A program made the translations under genes and the position numbers. DNA of 64,000 nt from Lachnospiraceae bacterium P6A3 (GTDB taxonomy: Bacteria; Bacillota; Clostridia; Lachnospirales; Lachnospiraceae), in contig JNKP01000001.1 of the NCBI GenBank assembly GCA_000702085.1, forward strand, positions 979,693-1,043,692, written 5' to 3'. Below, in pieces: positions 44,255-51,428 of this stretch. The notes below the pieces were generated by a model. It saw only the letters and a list, made by a program, of their open reading frames with translations. It did not search any database and was not told the origin of the DNA. How positions within the stretch are numbered: the stretch's first letter is position 1; every line of letters starts with the position of its first letter.

Positions 44255-44425
44255 TTAAGCCTGCTCGATACAAGCAACGGGGCACTGACCTGCGCAAGCG
44301 CCGCAGTCGATGCACTTTTCCTTGTCGATCTCGAACTTGCCATCGCCCATGCTGATAGCTCCAACAGGGCACTGAGCTTCACATCCGCCACAGCAGATGC
44401 ATCCTTCGCCAATCTGATATGCCAT
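44255..44425 (-). CDS. 2[4Fe-4S] ferredoxin, 56 aa
   Basis: A short frame encodes a clostridial-type ferredoxin starting MAYQIGEGCICCGGCEAQCP. Two 4Fe-4S motifs are seen: CICCGGCEAQCP and CIDCGACAGQCP. The length (56 aa) is exactly that of classical small ferredoxins. It carries low-potential electrons for pyruvate oxidation, hydrogenase or Rnf-type complexes. AGGAGG precedes the ATG. It lies immediately downstream of the PFL locus but behind a gap of about 100 bp, so co-transcription is uncertain. Confidence 0.93.
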   Translation of the reverse strand: MAYQIGEGCICCGGCEAQCPVGAISMGDGKFEIDKEKCIDCGACAGQCPVACIEQA

Positions 44426-44532: not shown

Positions 44533-45315
44533 TTATTTGTGACTAAAATCCTCGCCCGCTTCTGTAAGTTCTGCTCTTCTCTTCTTGATGCCGTCGATGA
44601 TAACCTGCTTCTTGGTCAAAAGGATCTTGGGATCCATAGGCTTAACATCCTTGAGAGGATAATCGATGCCAAGTTTCTCGTACTTAACCTTACCCATGTC
44701 ATGATAAGGAAGTGCGTCCAGTGCTCTGAGATTGTGGAACTGTCCGAGGAAATATCCCAGATCATAGAGATACTTATCATCATCGGTCCATCCGGGAACG
44801 ACTACGTGGCGGATCCACATATCCACGCCCTTCTCCTGAAGATAAAAAGCAAACTTAAGGATATTGGTATTCGGCTGGGATGTAAGTTTCTTGTGATGCT
44901 CGTTATCGATATGCTTGATATCAAGCATAACCAGATCCGTTACCTTCATGAGTCTGTCATGCTTGGCCATCATCTCAGGATTATCGGGATTAAACATGAT
45001 TCCCGATGTATCAAGGCAGGTGTGGATTCCCTCTTTCTTACAGAGCTCAAAAAGTTCCGTTACGAAATCAATCTGAACGAGGGGCTCTCCGCCGGTAACG
45101 GTGATACCGCCGCCGTTCATGTAGAAGCTCTCATTTCTGTGATACTGCTCCAATATATACTTAGGCTCCATTTCCGTTGCGCCTACCTGATCCCAGGTAT
45201 CCGGGTTATGGCAGTAGAGGCATCTCATGGGACAGCCTTTTGTAAATACAACGAATCTTGTGCCGGGACCGTCGACGGTTCCGAAGCTTTCAAGAGAATG
45301 GATTTTTCCTATCAT
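44533..45315 (-). CDS. pflA: Pyruvate formate-lyase activating enzyme
   Basis: 260 aa from ATG 45315 (GGAGG upstream; the longer frame to 45369 lacks support). Radical SAM enzyme with the cluster motif CPMRCLYCHNPDTW (CxxxCxxC), preceded by SFGTVDGPGTRFVVFTKG. The GGE motif is TVTGGEPLVQ. It installs the glycyl radical on PFL. Here its substrate would be the separate 81-aa glycyl-radical protein encoded just upstream at 45414-45659. Confidence 0.95.
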   Translation of the reverse strand: MIGKIHSLESFGTVDGPGTRFVVFTKGCPMRCLYCHNPDTWDQVGATEMEPKYILEQYHRNESFYMNGGGITVTGGEPLVQIDFVTELFELCKKEGIHTCLDTSGIMFNPDNPEMMAKHDRLMKVTDLVMLDIKHIDNEHHKKLTSQPNTNILKFAFYLQEKGVDMWIRHVVVPGWTDDDKYLYDLGYFLGQFHNLRALDALPYHDMGKVKYEKLGIDYPLKDVKPMDPKILLTKKQVIIDGIKKRRAELTEAGEDFSHK

Positions 45316-45368
45316 ATTCTCACCTCCGTTACCCCAATATCTTACCACATTTAAGACTTCTTCGGACA

Positions 45369-45400
45369 TAAAAAAAGGACTGCCGCATTTGCGACAGCCC
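45369..45400 (-). terminator. Terminator or attenuator between the glycyl-radical gene and pflA
   Basis: A ten-pair stem (45377-45400, two G-U) around loop AAAT is followed on the minus strand by T7. It would lower pflA expression relative to the PFL subunits. Confidence 0.8.
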
Positions 45401-45413
45401 TTTGTCAGACTTA

Positions 45414-45659
45414 TTAGATGGACTCGTGGAATGTACGAGAGATAACGTCTGCCTGCTGCTCGGGAGTAAGCTTAATGAAGTTTACTGCGTATCCGGATAC
45501 ACGGATGGTGAGCTGAGGATAATTCTCGGGATGCTGCTGAGCATCGAGAAGAGTTTCTCTGTTGAGAACGTTTACATTAAGATGGTGGCCACCCTTGGTA
45601 GCATAACCATCGAGAAGATTCACAAGGTTGGAAACCTGTGCGGTAGCTGCTTCTGCCAT
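45414..45659 (-). CDS. Stand-alone glycyl-radical domain of a split pyruvate formate-lyase, 81 aa
   Basis: 81 aa from ATG 45659 (AGGAGG 8 nt upstream). The sequence is the C-terminal domain of [22 protein letters not shown], then [17 protein letters not shown] with the radical glycine at Gly56, ending [13 protein letters not shown]. Its closest classical comparison is the last about 80 residues of E. coli PflB or the spare-part protein GrcA/YfiD. Because the local pflB gene lacks this part, this gene is likely an essential subunit rather than a repair module. It lies between a 67-aa gene and pflA. Confidence 0.92.
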
Positions 45660-45694
45660 GATTTTTTCCTCCTGGTAATATATTGGTAAACTCA

Positions 45695-45714
45695 GAAATC
45701 GCTGATACGATTTC
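45695..45714 (-). other. Intercistronic hairpin before the glycyl-radical gene
   Basis: GAAATCG (45695-45701) and CGATTTC (45708-45714), 7 bp perfect, between the 67-aa gene and the 81-aa gene. No T-run follows. Confidence 0.5.
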
Positions 45715-45758
45715 TTCGTGATATGATTAAAAATCAAACCTGGGATTTCAGATCATAT

Positions 45759-45962
45759 CTACTGATAATCGTCGATACCCTGATGGAGCGTAGGAACGCT
45801 GCAAGCCAACGGGGTTCTGGAACAATCCGTGCAACCCATGGTCGTAACATCCTTAACATCTGACTGATCTTCCGACGTGTCTACATTGACATGTCCGGTG
45901 CCGCTTGCGAATCCATCATCGAGCATCTTTACAAGATCATCTATCATGTCTTTCTGATCCAT
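45759..45962 (-). CDS. 67-aa PFL-like Cys-rich mini-protein
   Basis: Starts MDQKDMIDDLVKMLDDGFAS and continues GTGHVNVDTSED. This aligns by eye to the segment just before the radical loop of PFL ([21 protein letters not shown] in the neighbour). The radical-loop RVSGY motif is absent. Instead the second half is TTMGCTDCSRTPLACSVP with three cysteines, then LHQGIDDYQ. GGAAAGGA precedes ATG 45962. It is encoded between the two halves of the split PFL, same strand. I do not recognise a named family; a regulatory, scaffolding or redox role for the split enzyme is possible but unproven. Confidence 0.72.
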   Translation of the reverse strand: MDQKDMIDDLVKMLDDGFASGTGHVNVDTSEDQSDVKDVTTMGCTDCSRTPLACSVPTLHQGIDDYQ

Positions 45963-46004
45963 AGTGGTATCCTTTCCGTTTATTTATTTATATCCGGCCC
46001 TTCC

Positions 46005-46035
46005 GGCCAAGGTACCGGGAACCCGGTACGTGGCC
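46005..46035 (-). other. Intercistronic hairpin after pflB
   Basis: GTACCGG/CCGGTAC around loop GAAC (46012-46029) with outer GGCC/GGCC (46005-46008, 46032-46035). It sits between the pflB stop and the 67-aa gene and has no T-run, so mRNA stabilisation or partial termination is more likely than full termination. Confidence 0.6.
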
Positions 46036-46057
46036 TTCGGAGCTTCGAGGCATTTAA

Positions 46058-48100
46058 TTACTTGCTGAGGTCAAGATCGATGTCGCCTGCAAATACCTTG
46101 TCATCCTTGCCGAGTGCACCGGGGATGATGGTGAAGGTATTGGAGATTCCGTCCTGAGCATCGTTGAAAGGAAGCTTGGATACGGAAGAAAGGGAAGCGA
46201 CAGCACCGTGGGTGTCACGACCATGCATAGGGTTAGCTCCGGGAGCGAAAGGCATGCCCTTCTTACGTCCGTCGGGAGTGTTTCCGGTTGCCTTACCATA
46301 GGTAACGTTTGAAGTGATGGTAAGGATTGAGGTGGTAGGAACACCATCTCTGTAGGTGTGATGACGACGAACTGCGGTCATGAACTTGTGAACGATCATC
46401 TGAGCGATATCGTCTACACGGTCATCGTCGTTACCATACTTAGGGAACTCACCGGTGGTCTTGAAGTCGGTGATGATACCGTCCTCATCGCGGATAACTT
46501 CAACCTTAGCATACTTGATAGCTGAAAGTGAGTCAGCAACGATTGAAAGACCTGCAATACCGGTTGCGAAATATCTCTTAACGTTCTTGTCATGAAGAGC
46601 CATCTCTGCTCTCTCATAGCAATACTTGTCGTGCATGTAGTGGATGATGTTGAGGGTGTTAACGTAAACCTCAGCCTGCCACTCCATCATGTCGATGAAC
46701 TTGTCCATAACATCATCATAGTCAAGGACGTCACCGGTAACAGGGCGATACTTAGGACCAACCTGCTTCTTGGTAACTTCATCGATACCACCGTTAAGAG
46801 CATAAAGGAGACACTTAGCAAGGTTAGCACGTGCTCCGAAGAACTGCATCTCTTTACCGATAACCATTGAGGATACGCAGCATGCGATACCGTAGTCATC
46901 GCCGTGAACAACTCTCATGAGATCGTCGTTCTCGTACTGGATTGAAGAAGTGGTGATGGAGATCTTAGCGCAGTACTTCTTCCAGTTCTGAGGAAGTCTG
47001 GTTGACCAGAGAACGGTAAGGTTGGGCTCGGGAGCTGCACCAAGGTTCTCAAGGGTGTGGAGATAACGGAAAGAGGTCTTGGTAACCATGTGTCTTCCGT
47101 CAACGCCTACGCCGCCGAGAGACTCGGTAACCCAAACGGGATCGCCTGCGAAGATCTGGTTGTACTCGGGAGTTCTTGCGAACTTAACGCAACGAAGCTT
47201 CATGATGAAGTGATCTACGAATTCCTGGATCTGCTCCTCGGTGAAGGTTCCGTTTGCGAGGTCACGCTCTGCATAAATATCAATGAAAGTGGAGGTACGG
47301 CCAAGGCTCATTGCTGCACCGTTCTGCTCCTTAACGGATGAAAGATATCCGAAGTAGGTCCACTGGATAGCTTCCTGAACGTTTGCTGCGGGCTTGGAAA
47401 TGTCGCATCCGTAAGATGCAGCCATCTCTTTCATCATCTTGAGAGCCTTGATCTGCTCGCTGAGCTCTTCACGAAGACGGATAACGTCATCGGTCATAAC
47501 GTAATCGGTGGAGAGCTTCTGCTCTTCCTTGTCCTCGATAAGTCTGTCGATACCATAGAGAGCAACTCTACGATAGTCACCGATGATACGTCCTCTTCCG
47601 TAAGCATCGGGAAGACCGGTAACGATGTGTGAAGAACGGCAATTTCTCATCTCGGGGGTGTAAGCATCGAAACATCCCTCGTTGTGAGTCTTACGGTTTA
47701 CTGCGAAGAAAGCGGAAACCTCGGGATCAACTTCGTATCCGTTGTCCTGGCAAGCTTTCTCTGCCATTCTGAGTCCGCCCCAAGGCTGAAGTGAACGCTT
47801 GAAAGGCTTGTCGGTCTGGAATCCGACGATCTTCTCCTTGCTCTTGTCGAGATATCCGGGGCCGTGAGAAACGATGGTTGATACAACCTTGGTGTCCATA
47901 TCAAGAACGCCGCCTGCTTCTCTCTCCTTCTTCTGAAGATCGAGAACCTGTGCCCAAAGATCCTTGGTAGCCTGTGTAGGTCCTGCAAGGAAGCTCTCAT
48001 CTCCGTCATAGGGATGATAGTTTCTCTGGATGAAGTCACGGACATTTACTTCTCTGTCCCACTTACCTGTTTTGAAATCCTGCCATTCAGGTCTTTCCAT
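46058..48100 (-). CDS. pflB: Pyruvate formate-lyase main chain lacking the glycyl-radical domain
   Basis: 680 aa. Strong PFL identity: [23 protein letters not shown], the catalytic Cys pair Cys407-Cys408 in [12 protein letters not shown], and near the end [26 protein letters not shown] and [12 protein letters not shown]. It then stops (GDIDLDLSK) about 80 residues short of the usual 750-760; the missing part, with the radical glycine, is the separate 81-aa gene at 45414-45659. 680 plus 81 equals 761, almost exactly E. coli PflB (760). GGAGG precedes the ATG. Converts pyruvate and CoA to acetyl-CoA and formate under anaerobiosis. Confidence 0.94.
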
Positions 48101-48174: not shown

Positions 48175-48300
48175 GTATACCGACTCCTAAACCGCTTCGT
48201 GAGTGATTCAATTATAGTTAAGATTGTATACAGAAGTCAAGGTGAAGCCGTGTACTTTTTTACGTACAAAGCCCATGAAACCTGACTTTTTCGTGTATAC
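48175..48300. promoter_or_regulatory. Three GTATAC-centred operator-like sites at pflB
   Basis: ATTGTATACC (GTATAC at 48175-48180), GATTGTATACAG (48226-48231) and GTGTATACAATG (48295-48300). The shared TTGTATAC/GTATACAA core is palindromic. The middle one lies inside the pflB promoter spacer. Confidence 0.6.
48211..48240 (-). promoter_or_regulatory. Promoter of the pfl locus
   Basis: On minus: TTGACT (48235-48240), 18-bp spacer and a perfect TATAAT (48211-48216). Transcription should start near 48204, giving a leader of about 100 nt. The 48101-48428 interval otherwise holds no gene. Confidence 0.85.
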
Positions 48301-48428
48301 AATGTTTCACGGAACATAAATTTTTCATTAAAATCAAAAACATATTGTTCAAATTGGTTTTAATGAGATATACTGTCTTTTCGTAACAGGTTATTTTCGA
48401 AATAAACAATCACTGTATGGAGCAGATT

Positions 48429-48731
48429 ATGGATACCGAAGTAAAAGAAAACCTTGATATGGAATTTGAAGACGAAGAAGTTTCCATGGACGGACAGCCC
48501 GTAAGGGAAGTATGCGGGATCAGATCCAACATGACCCTTGGTGACATTATGGCCAAGAAACCCGAAGTCATCCCCATTCTCATGGAAGCGGGAATGCACT
48601 GCGTAAGCTGTCCCGCAGCGCTTATGGAAACCCTTGAAGAAGCCGCCATCGTGCACGGAATCCTCATTGACGAACTCATGGATTATATCAAAGAGTCTCT
48701 CGAAAGAGACGCCAAGCCTGAGGAAGAATAA
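48429..48731 (+). CDS. DUF1858 domain protein
   Basis: 100 aa from ATG 48429, chosen because GGAG lies 6 nt upstream; an in-frame ATG at 48417 has none. An acidic N-terminal extension (1-35) precedes a DUF1858 helical domain with MTLGDIMAKKPEVIPILMEAGMHC (in part) and the CVSCPAALMETLEEA motif. This CxxC-bearing domain also occurs fused to hybrid-cluster or ScdA-type redox proteins; function unknown. It is divergent from pflB, and shares the intergenic region holding GTATAC sites. Confidence 0.85.
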   Translation: MDTEVKENLDMEFEDEEVSMDGQPVREVCGIRSNMTLGDIMAKKPEVIPILMEAGMHCVSCPAALMETLEEAAIVHGILIDELMDYIKESLERDAKPEEE

Positions 48732-48803: not shown

Positions 48804-51260
48804 TTACAATCTGAACTTATCAATGATTTCGGTAAGGCTCGATACAACTTCCTTGGTCTCGTTAACCTTATCGATGCTGTCCGCGGTTTCAGCAGACATC
48901 TCGGAAGTCTTCTCCGCAATATCAACAACACCGTGAGATGCTTCGGTAACGGTGGTATCGATTCCCTCGATGGAGGATACGATCATGTCCATATCCTGAG
49001 CAAGCTCCTGGATGCTGGTTCTGATCTCGTTCATGCTGTTTCCGAATGTATCGGCATCAACCTTATACTGCTCACTGACTTTACCGAATTCCTCGTAATC
49101 CGCAAGGACGTTGGTCTCGAGGAAATTGGTGGTCTGAGTAAGGCACTCGGACATCTGACCGACAGCGCTGTTAACTTCGTCAACGATGCTTCCGATGTTC
49201 TTAACAGCTTCGGAAGTCTGGGTAGCCAGATTTGAAATCTCGGTTGCAACAACCGCAAATCCTCTTCCTGCCTCTCCCGCTCTTGCTGCCTCGATGGAAG
49301 CGTTGAGAGCAAGGAGCCCGGTCTGTGAGGAAATAGCCATGATGGTTCCGGTGAGTTCGTTAATCTTGTTAACTGCCTGTGAAGCAACGATTGCTTCTTC
49401 GGACTTAACCTTAACGGACTCGTAGATCTCGATGGTCTTCTTGCTGGCCTTCTCGGTAGTTGCGGCAAGTTCTCCCGCACGGCTGAGAACTTCATCGGAA
49501 AGCTTGGTTCCTTCGCCTGCAAGATCGTCTATGCCGCGAGCGCTTTCGCGAACATTTGCTACATTCTGGGCAATGGTAGTGGTAGAAGCTGCGGTCTCCT
49601 GCATTCCTGCAGCAAGCTCTTCGGTAGTAGCGGAGTTATCTTCGCAGATATTTCCGACCTTATCGATGGTAGCCTGAAGTACGTCAACATTCGAATTGAT
49701 ATTGTTTCCTGCCTCGGAGATGGATCCGACCATTTCTCTGAGGTTGTTTCTCGTCTTGCCGAGAGCCTTGGCAATAAGTCCGACTTCGTCCTTTCTTCTC
49801 TCAAGAGCAGCTGAATCCTTGTCTTCGGTGAAGTCGTAATTTGCCGTCTTGTTGATAACGGGCACGAGCTGTTCAAGAGCCTTAAGAAGGAACATTGAGA
49901 ATACGGCAACAAGAGCGATTGCCAGGATGACGCCGACGATGCCGAGGATGATAAGGCTTCTCTTCATGGCATCAACGCCTGCCATCATCTTATCTCTGTC
50001 AGCGGTAACGATTACGATGTTACCGTCTCTGGTAAATGCATATCCTGCAACTTTAAACGATCCTTTGTACTCATAAGTACATGATCCGTTTTCTACGGTC
50101 TTACCCTGCTGAAGATCGCTGACGATGCCTTTAACGGCTGCGTTCTCAACAGGCTGTCCGATCTTCTCGGGATTGGTATGGTAAAGCATGGTTCCGTCGG
50201 GAGATACCATGTATGCATAAGATCCCTCAACACCGGACATCTCGATCTTACCGATCAGAGTATCATAGTCGATCCTGATGAGCTTATCGTAATCCGCTGT
50301 TACAAGAACTATATTACCGGTATCTGTGAACGAATAACCGGCAAGCTTTAGTGCATCTTTATACTCATAAATGACATAACCGTCACTTACTGTTTTGCCT
50401 GCCTGAATATCGGCAACGATTCCTTTTACCGCTGCGTTCTCAACAGGCTGTCCGATCTTATCGGGATTGGTGTGCCAAAGCATGGTTCCGTCGGGAGATA
50501 CCATGTAAGCATAAGATCCCTCAACTCCGTCGATCTCGATGTTTCCGAGAAGAGTGTCGTAATCGATCTTCATGAACTCATCGTAGTCTGCAGTAACGAT
50601 GAGGATATTTCCTGCGTTGGTAAATGCATAGCCCGCAAGCTTAAGGGCTTCTTTGTATTCGTATAAAACAGAACCGTTCTCAACAGTCTTGCCTGCCTGA
50701 AGGTCTGCAACGATTCCCTTAACTGCCGCATTTTCTACGGGATTGCCTATCTTCTCCGGATTGGGATGCCAAAGCATGGTTCCGTCGGGAGATACCATGT
50801 AAGCATAAGAACCTGCCACATCCTTGATGGCAACATTCTTAAGTACAGTGTCGAGCTGAGCGGTCGTAAGTCCTGCTCCTCCCGCAAGATCAACTGCTTT
50901 CGCAGCTTCCTCCGCAAGGTTCTGTGCGTAAGACTTGTAAACCGTCTCACCGAACTCTCTTGAGAAATTGATGGAAATAGCAGCTTCCTGTGCAAGGTTC
51001 ATTGCGTATCCGCCATAAGCCTGCTCTCCGAACTCGGTTGCAAAATCAACACCTATTGCCGCTTCTTCCGCCAGATTCTGAGCGTAGTTGAGGTATGTAT
51101 CCTCCAACTCCTTCGATGATCTGTTTGAAGCCACGATCACCTGTACGACTACGGCAACCAACACGATAACGCTTGATGCCAATGCAATCTTGGTGCTCAT
51201 CTTGTTGAAAAACGTAAGCTTACCCTCGCTCGTTAGCGACTTGGAACTGTTTGCCGCCAT
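48804..51260 (-). CDS. Methyl-accepting chemotaxis protein with triplicated sensor domain
   Basis: 818 aa from ATG 51260 (GGAGG upstream; the GTG at 51269 overlaps that site). First membrane helix about 25-45. Then three about 26-aa repeats built on [10 protein letters not shown] (about 59-136), then three 98-residue copies of a Cache-like unit (about 148-441), each containing [16 protein letters not shown] and [15 protein letters not shown]. Second membrane helix about 442-467, HAMP about 468-520, and the signalling hairpin with [20 protein letters not shown] near residue 650. It should report an extracellular small molecule to CheA. Chemotaxis partners are not in the window. Confidence 0.92.
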
Positions 51261-51428
51261 AAATTTCACCTCCGCTTAATTAATCAATATATCAATCGGT
51301 TCCATCCGATCAATTAACAAAAAAGAGATGCAAAACCAAGAACTTAAGAATCTAACAAGCCAAAACGCCGAACAGATAAAGCAAAAAAGCTAAAAAAGAA
51401 CAAAAAATCGGCCATTTGAAACGAGCCG

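Follow-up and report, generated by a model that had tools for sequence, protein, structure and literature searches.

A predicted pyruvate formate-lyase in separate pieces in Lachnospiraceae, with a small cysteine-bearing protein related to the glycyl-radical domain

Introduction

Pyruvate formate-lyase (PFL) is central to anaerobic fermentation and serves as the model glycyl radical enzyme (GRE). The closest described systems are GrcA/YfiD of E. coli and Y06I of phage T4, small radical-domain proteins that are activated by the PFL-activating enzyme (PFL-AE) and complete PFL in trans, as is predicted for the locus described here (PMC8683613, PMC12338860). In E. coli, the variant PflB-G734A yields formate with GrcA and none without it (PMC12338860), and a truncated PFL (tPFL, residues 1-695) combined with YfiD equals the wild type in activity once activated (PMC8683613). 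However, the E. coli main chain cut at residue 695 binds YfiD too weakly for ITC and acquires 32-fold less radical (PMC8683613)—an observation that we count against the split-enzyme explanation developed below. Moreover, GrcA/YfiD and Y06I rescue damaged full-length PFL, whereas the main chain considered here is made without a radical loop. A two-gene operon also encodes the split class II ribonucleotide reductase NrdJa/NrdJb, a radical enzyme with redox cysteines on its small subunit (PMC4520616); its radical cofactor stays on the large chain, unlike in the present case, and no homology is claimed.

Individual parts of a split PFL have already been met by annotators and crystallographers, given that NCBIfam holds the radical-subunit family GrcA3 and the PDB holds 38lb_A and 38la_A (Formate acetyltransferase), the closest solved chains to our main chain. 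These two chains are nearly the same as two natural proteins without the RVSGYAV motif, P0121 (718 aa) and P0241 (666 aa), and 38la, which carries no cysteine tail, is 99% identical to a protein (P0244) named from Amygdalobacter nucleatus. The PFL named from A. nucleatus is a 666-aa, split-type chain (seen as the main chain alone), and the organism is reported to produce formate and to grow less in the presence of the PFL inhibitor hypophosphite (PMC12208373). For the small protein, the single matching PDB chain is E. coli YfiD (6owr). Our searches of the open-licence literature brought up no description of PFL as a naturally split enzyme or of the third component introduced below; passages of PMC11528403, PMC6325248 and PMC11194802 likewise mention neither.

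Organisation of the locus

The window, i.e., the whole 64,000-nucleotide stretch of DNA that was analysed, had been reported in a preliminary description to encode PFL as two parts, a main chain and a glycyl-radical domain. That gene listing was incomplete—a third small gene, S67, lies between the two and had been overlooked. The locus comprises the following features:

44255..44425, minus strand: 4Fe-4S ferredoxin, 56 aa (NF058577, 75.9 bits, cut-off 65)
44533..45318, minus strand: pflA, PFL-activating radical-SAM enzyme (TIGR02493, 291.2 bits, cut-off 231.75)
45374..45403, minus strand: terminator-like hairpin of 13 pairs plus a T run, between the 81-aa gene and pflA (consensus scan)
45414..45659, minus strand: GrcA3-type radical subunit, 81 aa (PF01228 positions 51-106, E=3.4e-23; NF038360, 157.9 bits)
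45759..45962, minus strand: S67, 67 aa, first half of a radical domain plus a Cys motif (C44, C47, C54)
46058..48100, minus strand: pflB main chain, 680 aa (PF02901, E=6e-219; TIGR01255, 1092 bits, cut-off 994.2)
48211..48240, minus strand: promoter-like site TTGACT-18-TATAAT, 11/12, upstream of pflB (consensus scan)

Read from its ATG at 45318, pflA encodes 261 aa; the translation that was searched began one codon earlier, at 45321. Ribosome-binding-like sequences, as judged by eye, precede the operon genes. Promoter-like sites in the consensus scan occur at chance level overall (6 vs. 5.8 expected), and a hairpin in the intergenic region between pflB and S67 is not significant (z = -1.14). 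The 56-aa ferredoxin gene recurs beside many related operons at the related loci, and we infer that its product is linked to PFL. Adjoining pflB and divergent from it, a 104-aa frame (48417-48731) with a CVSC motif possibly encodes a small redox protein; it is followed by an 821-aa frame (48804-51269), presumably a chemotaxis receptor, whose sensor part contains three near-identical repeats.

The main chain displays a PFL-like barrel with the vicinal active-site pair Cys407-Cys408 and lacks the glycyl-radical loop, which had been assigned to the 81-aa gene of the same operon with its RVSGYAV motif. Family models bear this assignment out: the TIGR01255 match of the main chain stops at model position 665 of 744, the radical loop being a separate gene, and PF01228 is cut in two, with positions 1-51 on the main chain and 51-106 on the 81-aa protein. 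In alignment with E. coli PFL, the main chain accounts for the residues up to 681, and residues 682-758 are covered by the 81-aa protein. As judged by the TIGR01255 score and the Cys-Cys active site, the main chain belongs to the pyruvate formate-lyase family. The two lengths do add up to 761, against 760 in E. coli PflB as previously noted, but this sum is partly coincidence, because the C-terminus of the main chain runs about 10 residues past the part that matches E. coli PFL, and five residues of the E. coli loop are missing from the 81-aa protein.

The radical subunit and the rest of the genome

The 81-aa protein is a stand-alone radical domain, with Gly56 as the radical position within RVSGYAV and without the 60-residue N-terminal region found in YfiD. 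Over residues 6-81 it aligns to NF038360 (rad_fix_GrcA3, autonomous glycyl radical cofactor GrcA3) at 157.9 bits, 0.1 under the cut-off of 158; radical subunits of this type are already named in NCBIfam. The distance between a conserved Asn and the radical Gly amounts to 28 in 57/57 GrcA3 sequences. The family name implies a spare part, whereas in this organism no radical loop for PFL was found other than that of the 81-aa protein.

In fact, a search of the rest of the genome (assembly 98.97% complete, 9 contigs) revealed no full-length PFL that the 81-aa protein could rescue. Apart from the split main chain, a PFL-like domain occurs in one further chain of the assembly; of the four Gly_radical matches, two are the halves of the split PFL. 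By sequence, none of the other glycyl-radical chains in the assembly is a PFL: the remaining matches belong to NrdD and to a GRE whose active site has a single Cys and in which RVWGFS replaces RVSGYAV, so that neither a full-length PFL nor another stand-alone radical domain was found. By analogy with the results on E. coli GrcA/YfiD, and with A. nucleatus as a formate producer, we take the 81-aa protein to be a working radical subunit. From the E. coli GrcA/YfiD work, exchange of the radical carrier after oxygen damage, as put forward in the preliminary description, appears plausible.

S67, a relative of the radical domain with a Cys motif in place of the glycine loop

Searches of S67 against Pfam and NCBIfam returned no family at the cut-off, and Pfam's own PF01228 model gave no match. 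Profile-profile alignment with hhalign, in turn, matched the S67 profile to GrcA3 with 95.9% probability (E=5.9e-9, 38 columns), and the profile also matches the radical domains of full-length PFLs. On this basis, the first half of S67 is homologous to the glycyl-radical domain. In the second half the glycine loop is swapped for a Cys motif, GCTDCSRTPLACSVPTL in the window copy, and the radical glycine of RVSGY is absent. Alignment A1, with 28 rows, contains seven invariant columns, including C47, A53, C54 and P57; at two loci outside A1 (L067 and L075), S67 stops short of the AC.xP motif. The distance from a conserved Asn to the conserved Cys in S67 is 28 in 66/114 and 27-29 in 101/114 frames (counts that include related sequences), with N26 to C54 spanning 28 in the window copy; the set behind these figures held 117 frames, 110 of them distinct, and three were unmatched by the pattern.

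Relatives of S67 number 1697 in a set of 5.8 billion proteins, the few named among the matches listed being called 'hypothetical protein'. There were 468 matches in GTDB contigs, and in the best 80 of these 468, the named loci that were kept, S67 is preceded by a short pflB and followed by a radical subunit in 80/80. Across a phylum sample of 398 genomes, the S67 profile retrieved true S67 in only two, both from the window's own family, indicating that S67 does not accompany PFL in general. The window's genome also holds a second, divergent S67-like frame of 69 aa (L260; G000:C1:521286-521417, minus strand; E=7.4e-5), and a comparably weak match occurs in genome G001 at C29 (E=2.8e-5).

Distribution of the split enzyme

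The preliminary description had suggested that the split might be the normal form of the enzyme. Among 150 genomes of the family examined with TIGR01255, 65 contain a full-length PFL, 55 a split main chain, three of these both, and 33 neither (18 of which gave no TIGR01255 match at all); these counts are our reading of the match table. A split main chain was defined as a match ending at model position 663-677, with two reaching 700 and 704 through stop codons. Including the window's genome, 52 of the 55 split genomes contain no full-length PFL, i.e., 52 of the 150 rely on the split form as the sole PFL found, so that the split form appears to be the ordinary PFL of a large lineage and the suggestion is well supported. 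The 666-aa PFL named from A. nucleatus, which secretes formate, is in line with it. The split is not a matter of chance and is hardly an assembly error, since 54 further genomes of the family show the same break, as do the 80 named contigs examined, some of them from isolates such as AC2028, YSD2013 and G11.

The 81-aa gene was present in 56/57 of the split loci or pieces fetched, the remaining one stopping at a contig end; at one locus (L090) it sits behind pflA. In an order-level sample of 117 genomes, all 16 places above the GrcA3 cut-off proved to be stand-alone frames of 82-101 aa, distributed over families f1, f8, f11 and f22. Likewise, each of the 16 GrcA3 loci fetched (14 from the order sample and two from family f154) adjoins a PFL main chain, one of them cut by a contig end; 13 have S67 and three a Cys tail. 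Short PFL main chains, seen as protein chains alone, are furthermore named from Olsenella and Thermophilibacter (695-697 aa, those read ending in DCGCC or DCACC) and from Amygdalobacter, Breznakia and Traorella (666-668 aa).

A regularity links S67 to the C-terminus of the main chain. Among 56 split main chains, 35 lie next to an S67, and in none of these does a Cys follow LGK (35/35); of the other 21, 19 bear at least two tail cysteines, and the two that bear none come from genomes with S67 elsewhere (G110 and G001; L263 and L270, detached from pflB). In 16/19 Cys tails the cysteines include the motif (A/S/P)C.(I/V/E)P, which resembles the ACSVP of S67, and the S67 profile itself matches the main-chain tail of one genome (G076; model positions 54-73, E=1.7e-5). 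S67 was not found in the 19 Cys-tail genomes, nor in any of 59 full-length-only genomes tested (three of the 62 being left out). Counted by genome, S67 lies beside pflB in 34 cases and elsewhere in two, and a Cys tail is present in 19; each of the 55 split family genomes thus has S67 or a Cys tail, none was found with both, and in all 55 the element contains at least two cysteines. The S67 and tail types interleave on the tree, with 10 changes, and a test of S67 against tail Cys by independent pairs did not reach significance (median p 0.125), because only five pairs fall on supported branches.

Beyond the family the rule weakens, and the Cys element is not universal: split PFLs in four genomes of family f154 (L273, L274, L301 and L302) carry a single tail Cys, within an AC.EPN motif, and no S67 was found in the two f154 genomes searched (G564 and G580), while the Amygdalobacter-, Breznakia- and Traorella-type chains, seen as protein chains alone, end in LGK(D/E) and have no tail Cys. 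As far as the literature was searched, the S67/Cys-tail element is undescribed.

Proposed mechanism and alternative explanations

We propose that the PFL of this organism is assembled from three gene products—a main chain lacking the radical loop, an 81-aa replaceable radical subunit that is predicted to dock onto it, and S67, which likely protects the empty site—and put the probability of this reading at roughly 60%. PflA would place the radical on Gly56, and the 81-aa subunit would then insert into the barrel of the main chain, bringing Gly56 to Cys408; after cleavage by O2, the 81-aa part alone would need replacement. More tentatively, S67 (or the tail) might occupy the vacant slot with its invariant Cys54 facing Cys407-Cys408, and Cys54 might either keep this pair as a reducible disulfide or quench stray thiyl radicals; S67 (or the tail) would do so until an active radical subunit takes its place. 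A cysteine stand-in in the slot of the radical subunit is our preferred, though more weakly inferred, reading of S67. AlphaFold predictions of read-through constructs were unusable as docking models, both for the main chain plus S67 (mean pLDDT 65) and for the main chain plus S67 plus GrcA3 (mean pLDDT 61; Foldseek rmsd of about 25 Å to E. coli PFL).

Several other explanations deserve consideration. The family of the 81-aa protein bears a spare-part name, and pflB could simply have lost its end through a gene break or an assembly artefact, leaving the 81-aa gene as a mere spare part; yet the arrangement is repeated in the 54 other family genomes and at 80/80 named loci, isolates among them, and the open frames sit behind ribosome-binding-like sequences, which makes such an accident extremely improbable. 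A different role for S67 would be to supply the truncated main chain, in trans, with a missing recognition element for the radical subunit or the activase, corresponding to E. coli residues 696-733. The homology of its first half to the early radical domain fits this idea, as does the requirement for residues 696-733 in YfiD binding in E. coli (PMC8683613). We nevertheless consider it unlikely, given that tail-type main chains dispense with that half and retain the Cys motif alone, and that this motif accounts for four of the seven columns that are invariant in S67.

The cysteines themselves invite two further readings. S67 or the tail could re-reduce an oxidised Cys407-Cys408 pair in the manner of the C-terminal redox Cys pair of class I/II ribonucleotide reductase (RNR), and tails such as CGNQACNIP and CPDEACRIP bear what we take to be a resemblance to the NrdA C-terminus. 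PFL, however, forms no disulfide during turnover. The cysteine counts cut both ways: all 55 split family genomes have at least two in S67 or the tail, but the four f154 genomes have one, so that a pair is not present in every member, and the Amygdalobacter-type chains seen have none. Even with the precedent of Pseudomonas NrdJb, where such a pair resides on the small subunit (PMC4520616), we regard an RNR-like tail as doubtful. S67 or the tail could instead be a regulatory subunit that binds a metal or an Fe-S cluster. Benzylsuccinate synthase and hydroxyphenylacetate decarboxylase are indeed accompanied by cluster-binding small subunits, but S67 and the tails have only two to four cysteines at variable spacing, and the first half of S67 is, by its profile match, a radical domain rather than a cluster fold; we hold this reading to be improbable.

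Extending the preferred reading, in which S67 stands in for the radical subunit, one may tentatively picture a three-part, plug-in GRE in a large lineage of anaerobes: a catalytic body that stays open, a disposable GrcA3 cartridge and a dummy cartridge (S67 or a fused Cys tail), with Cys in place of Gly, that would cap the active site until the live cartridge is loaded. If nature keeps the oxygen-sensitive part as a separate subunit at all times, the 'spare part' would become normal design instead of emergency repair. Split PFL thereby offers a ready system for studying radical loading, radical exchange and oxygen tolerance, and the S67/Cys-tail element marks where to seek how an empty active site is protected.

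Evolution of the split

A quick tree without bootstrap was built from 56 split and 70 full-length main chains, leaving out L037-L056 (cut loci mislabelled as full) and the fragments L110-L112. The split chains form one clade together with four full-length chains (L016, L017, L021 and L023; SH-aLRT 99), and the split versus full-length states require three changes on this tree. The AU test did not reject a single split clade (p = 0.40). One split followed by re-fusions fits these results, although we argue for re-fusion solely in the case of L021, since the test leaves a single split clade standing. Here, a 774-aa frame (L021:1465-3786) joins main chain, Cys tail and a GrcA3-like radical domain in a natural fusion, found in one of the 70 full-length PFLs; comparison of its radical domain gives scores of up to 0.89 with GrcA3 and of up to 0.73 with the domains of other full-length PFLs. 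A further alignment (A4) was set aside, as its full-length PFL rows fell on S67 and not on GrcA3.

Finally, a GrcA3 search of a phage collection returned 1539 records, the one annotated among the matches listed being a Klebsiella phage GrcA. Six records inspected (H1, H2, H5, H6, H7 and H9; L319-L324) all contain pflB, and five also contain pflA. These six are unverified and bacterial in appearance; L324 encodes a split PFL with a C..C tail and the rest are full-length.
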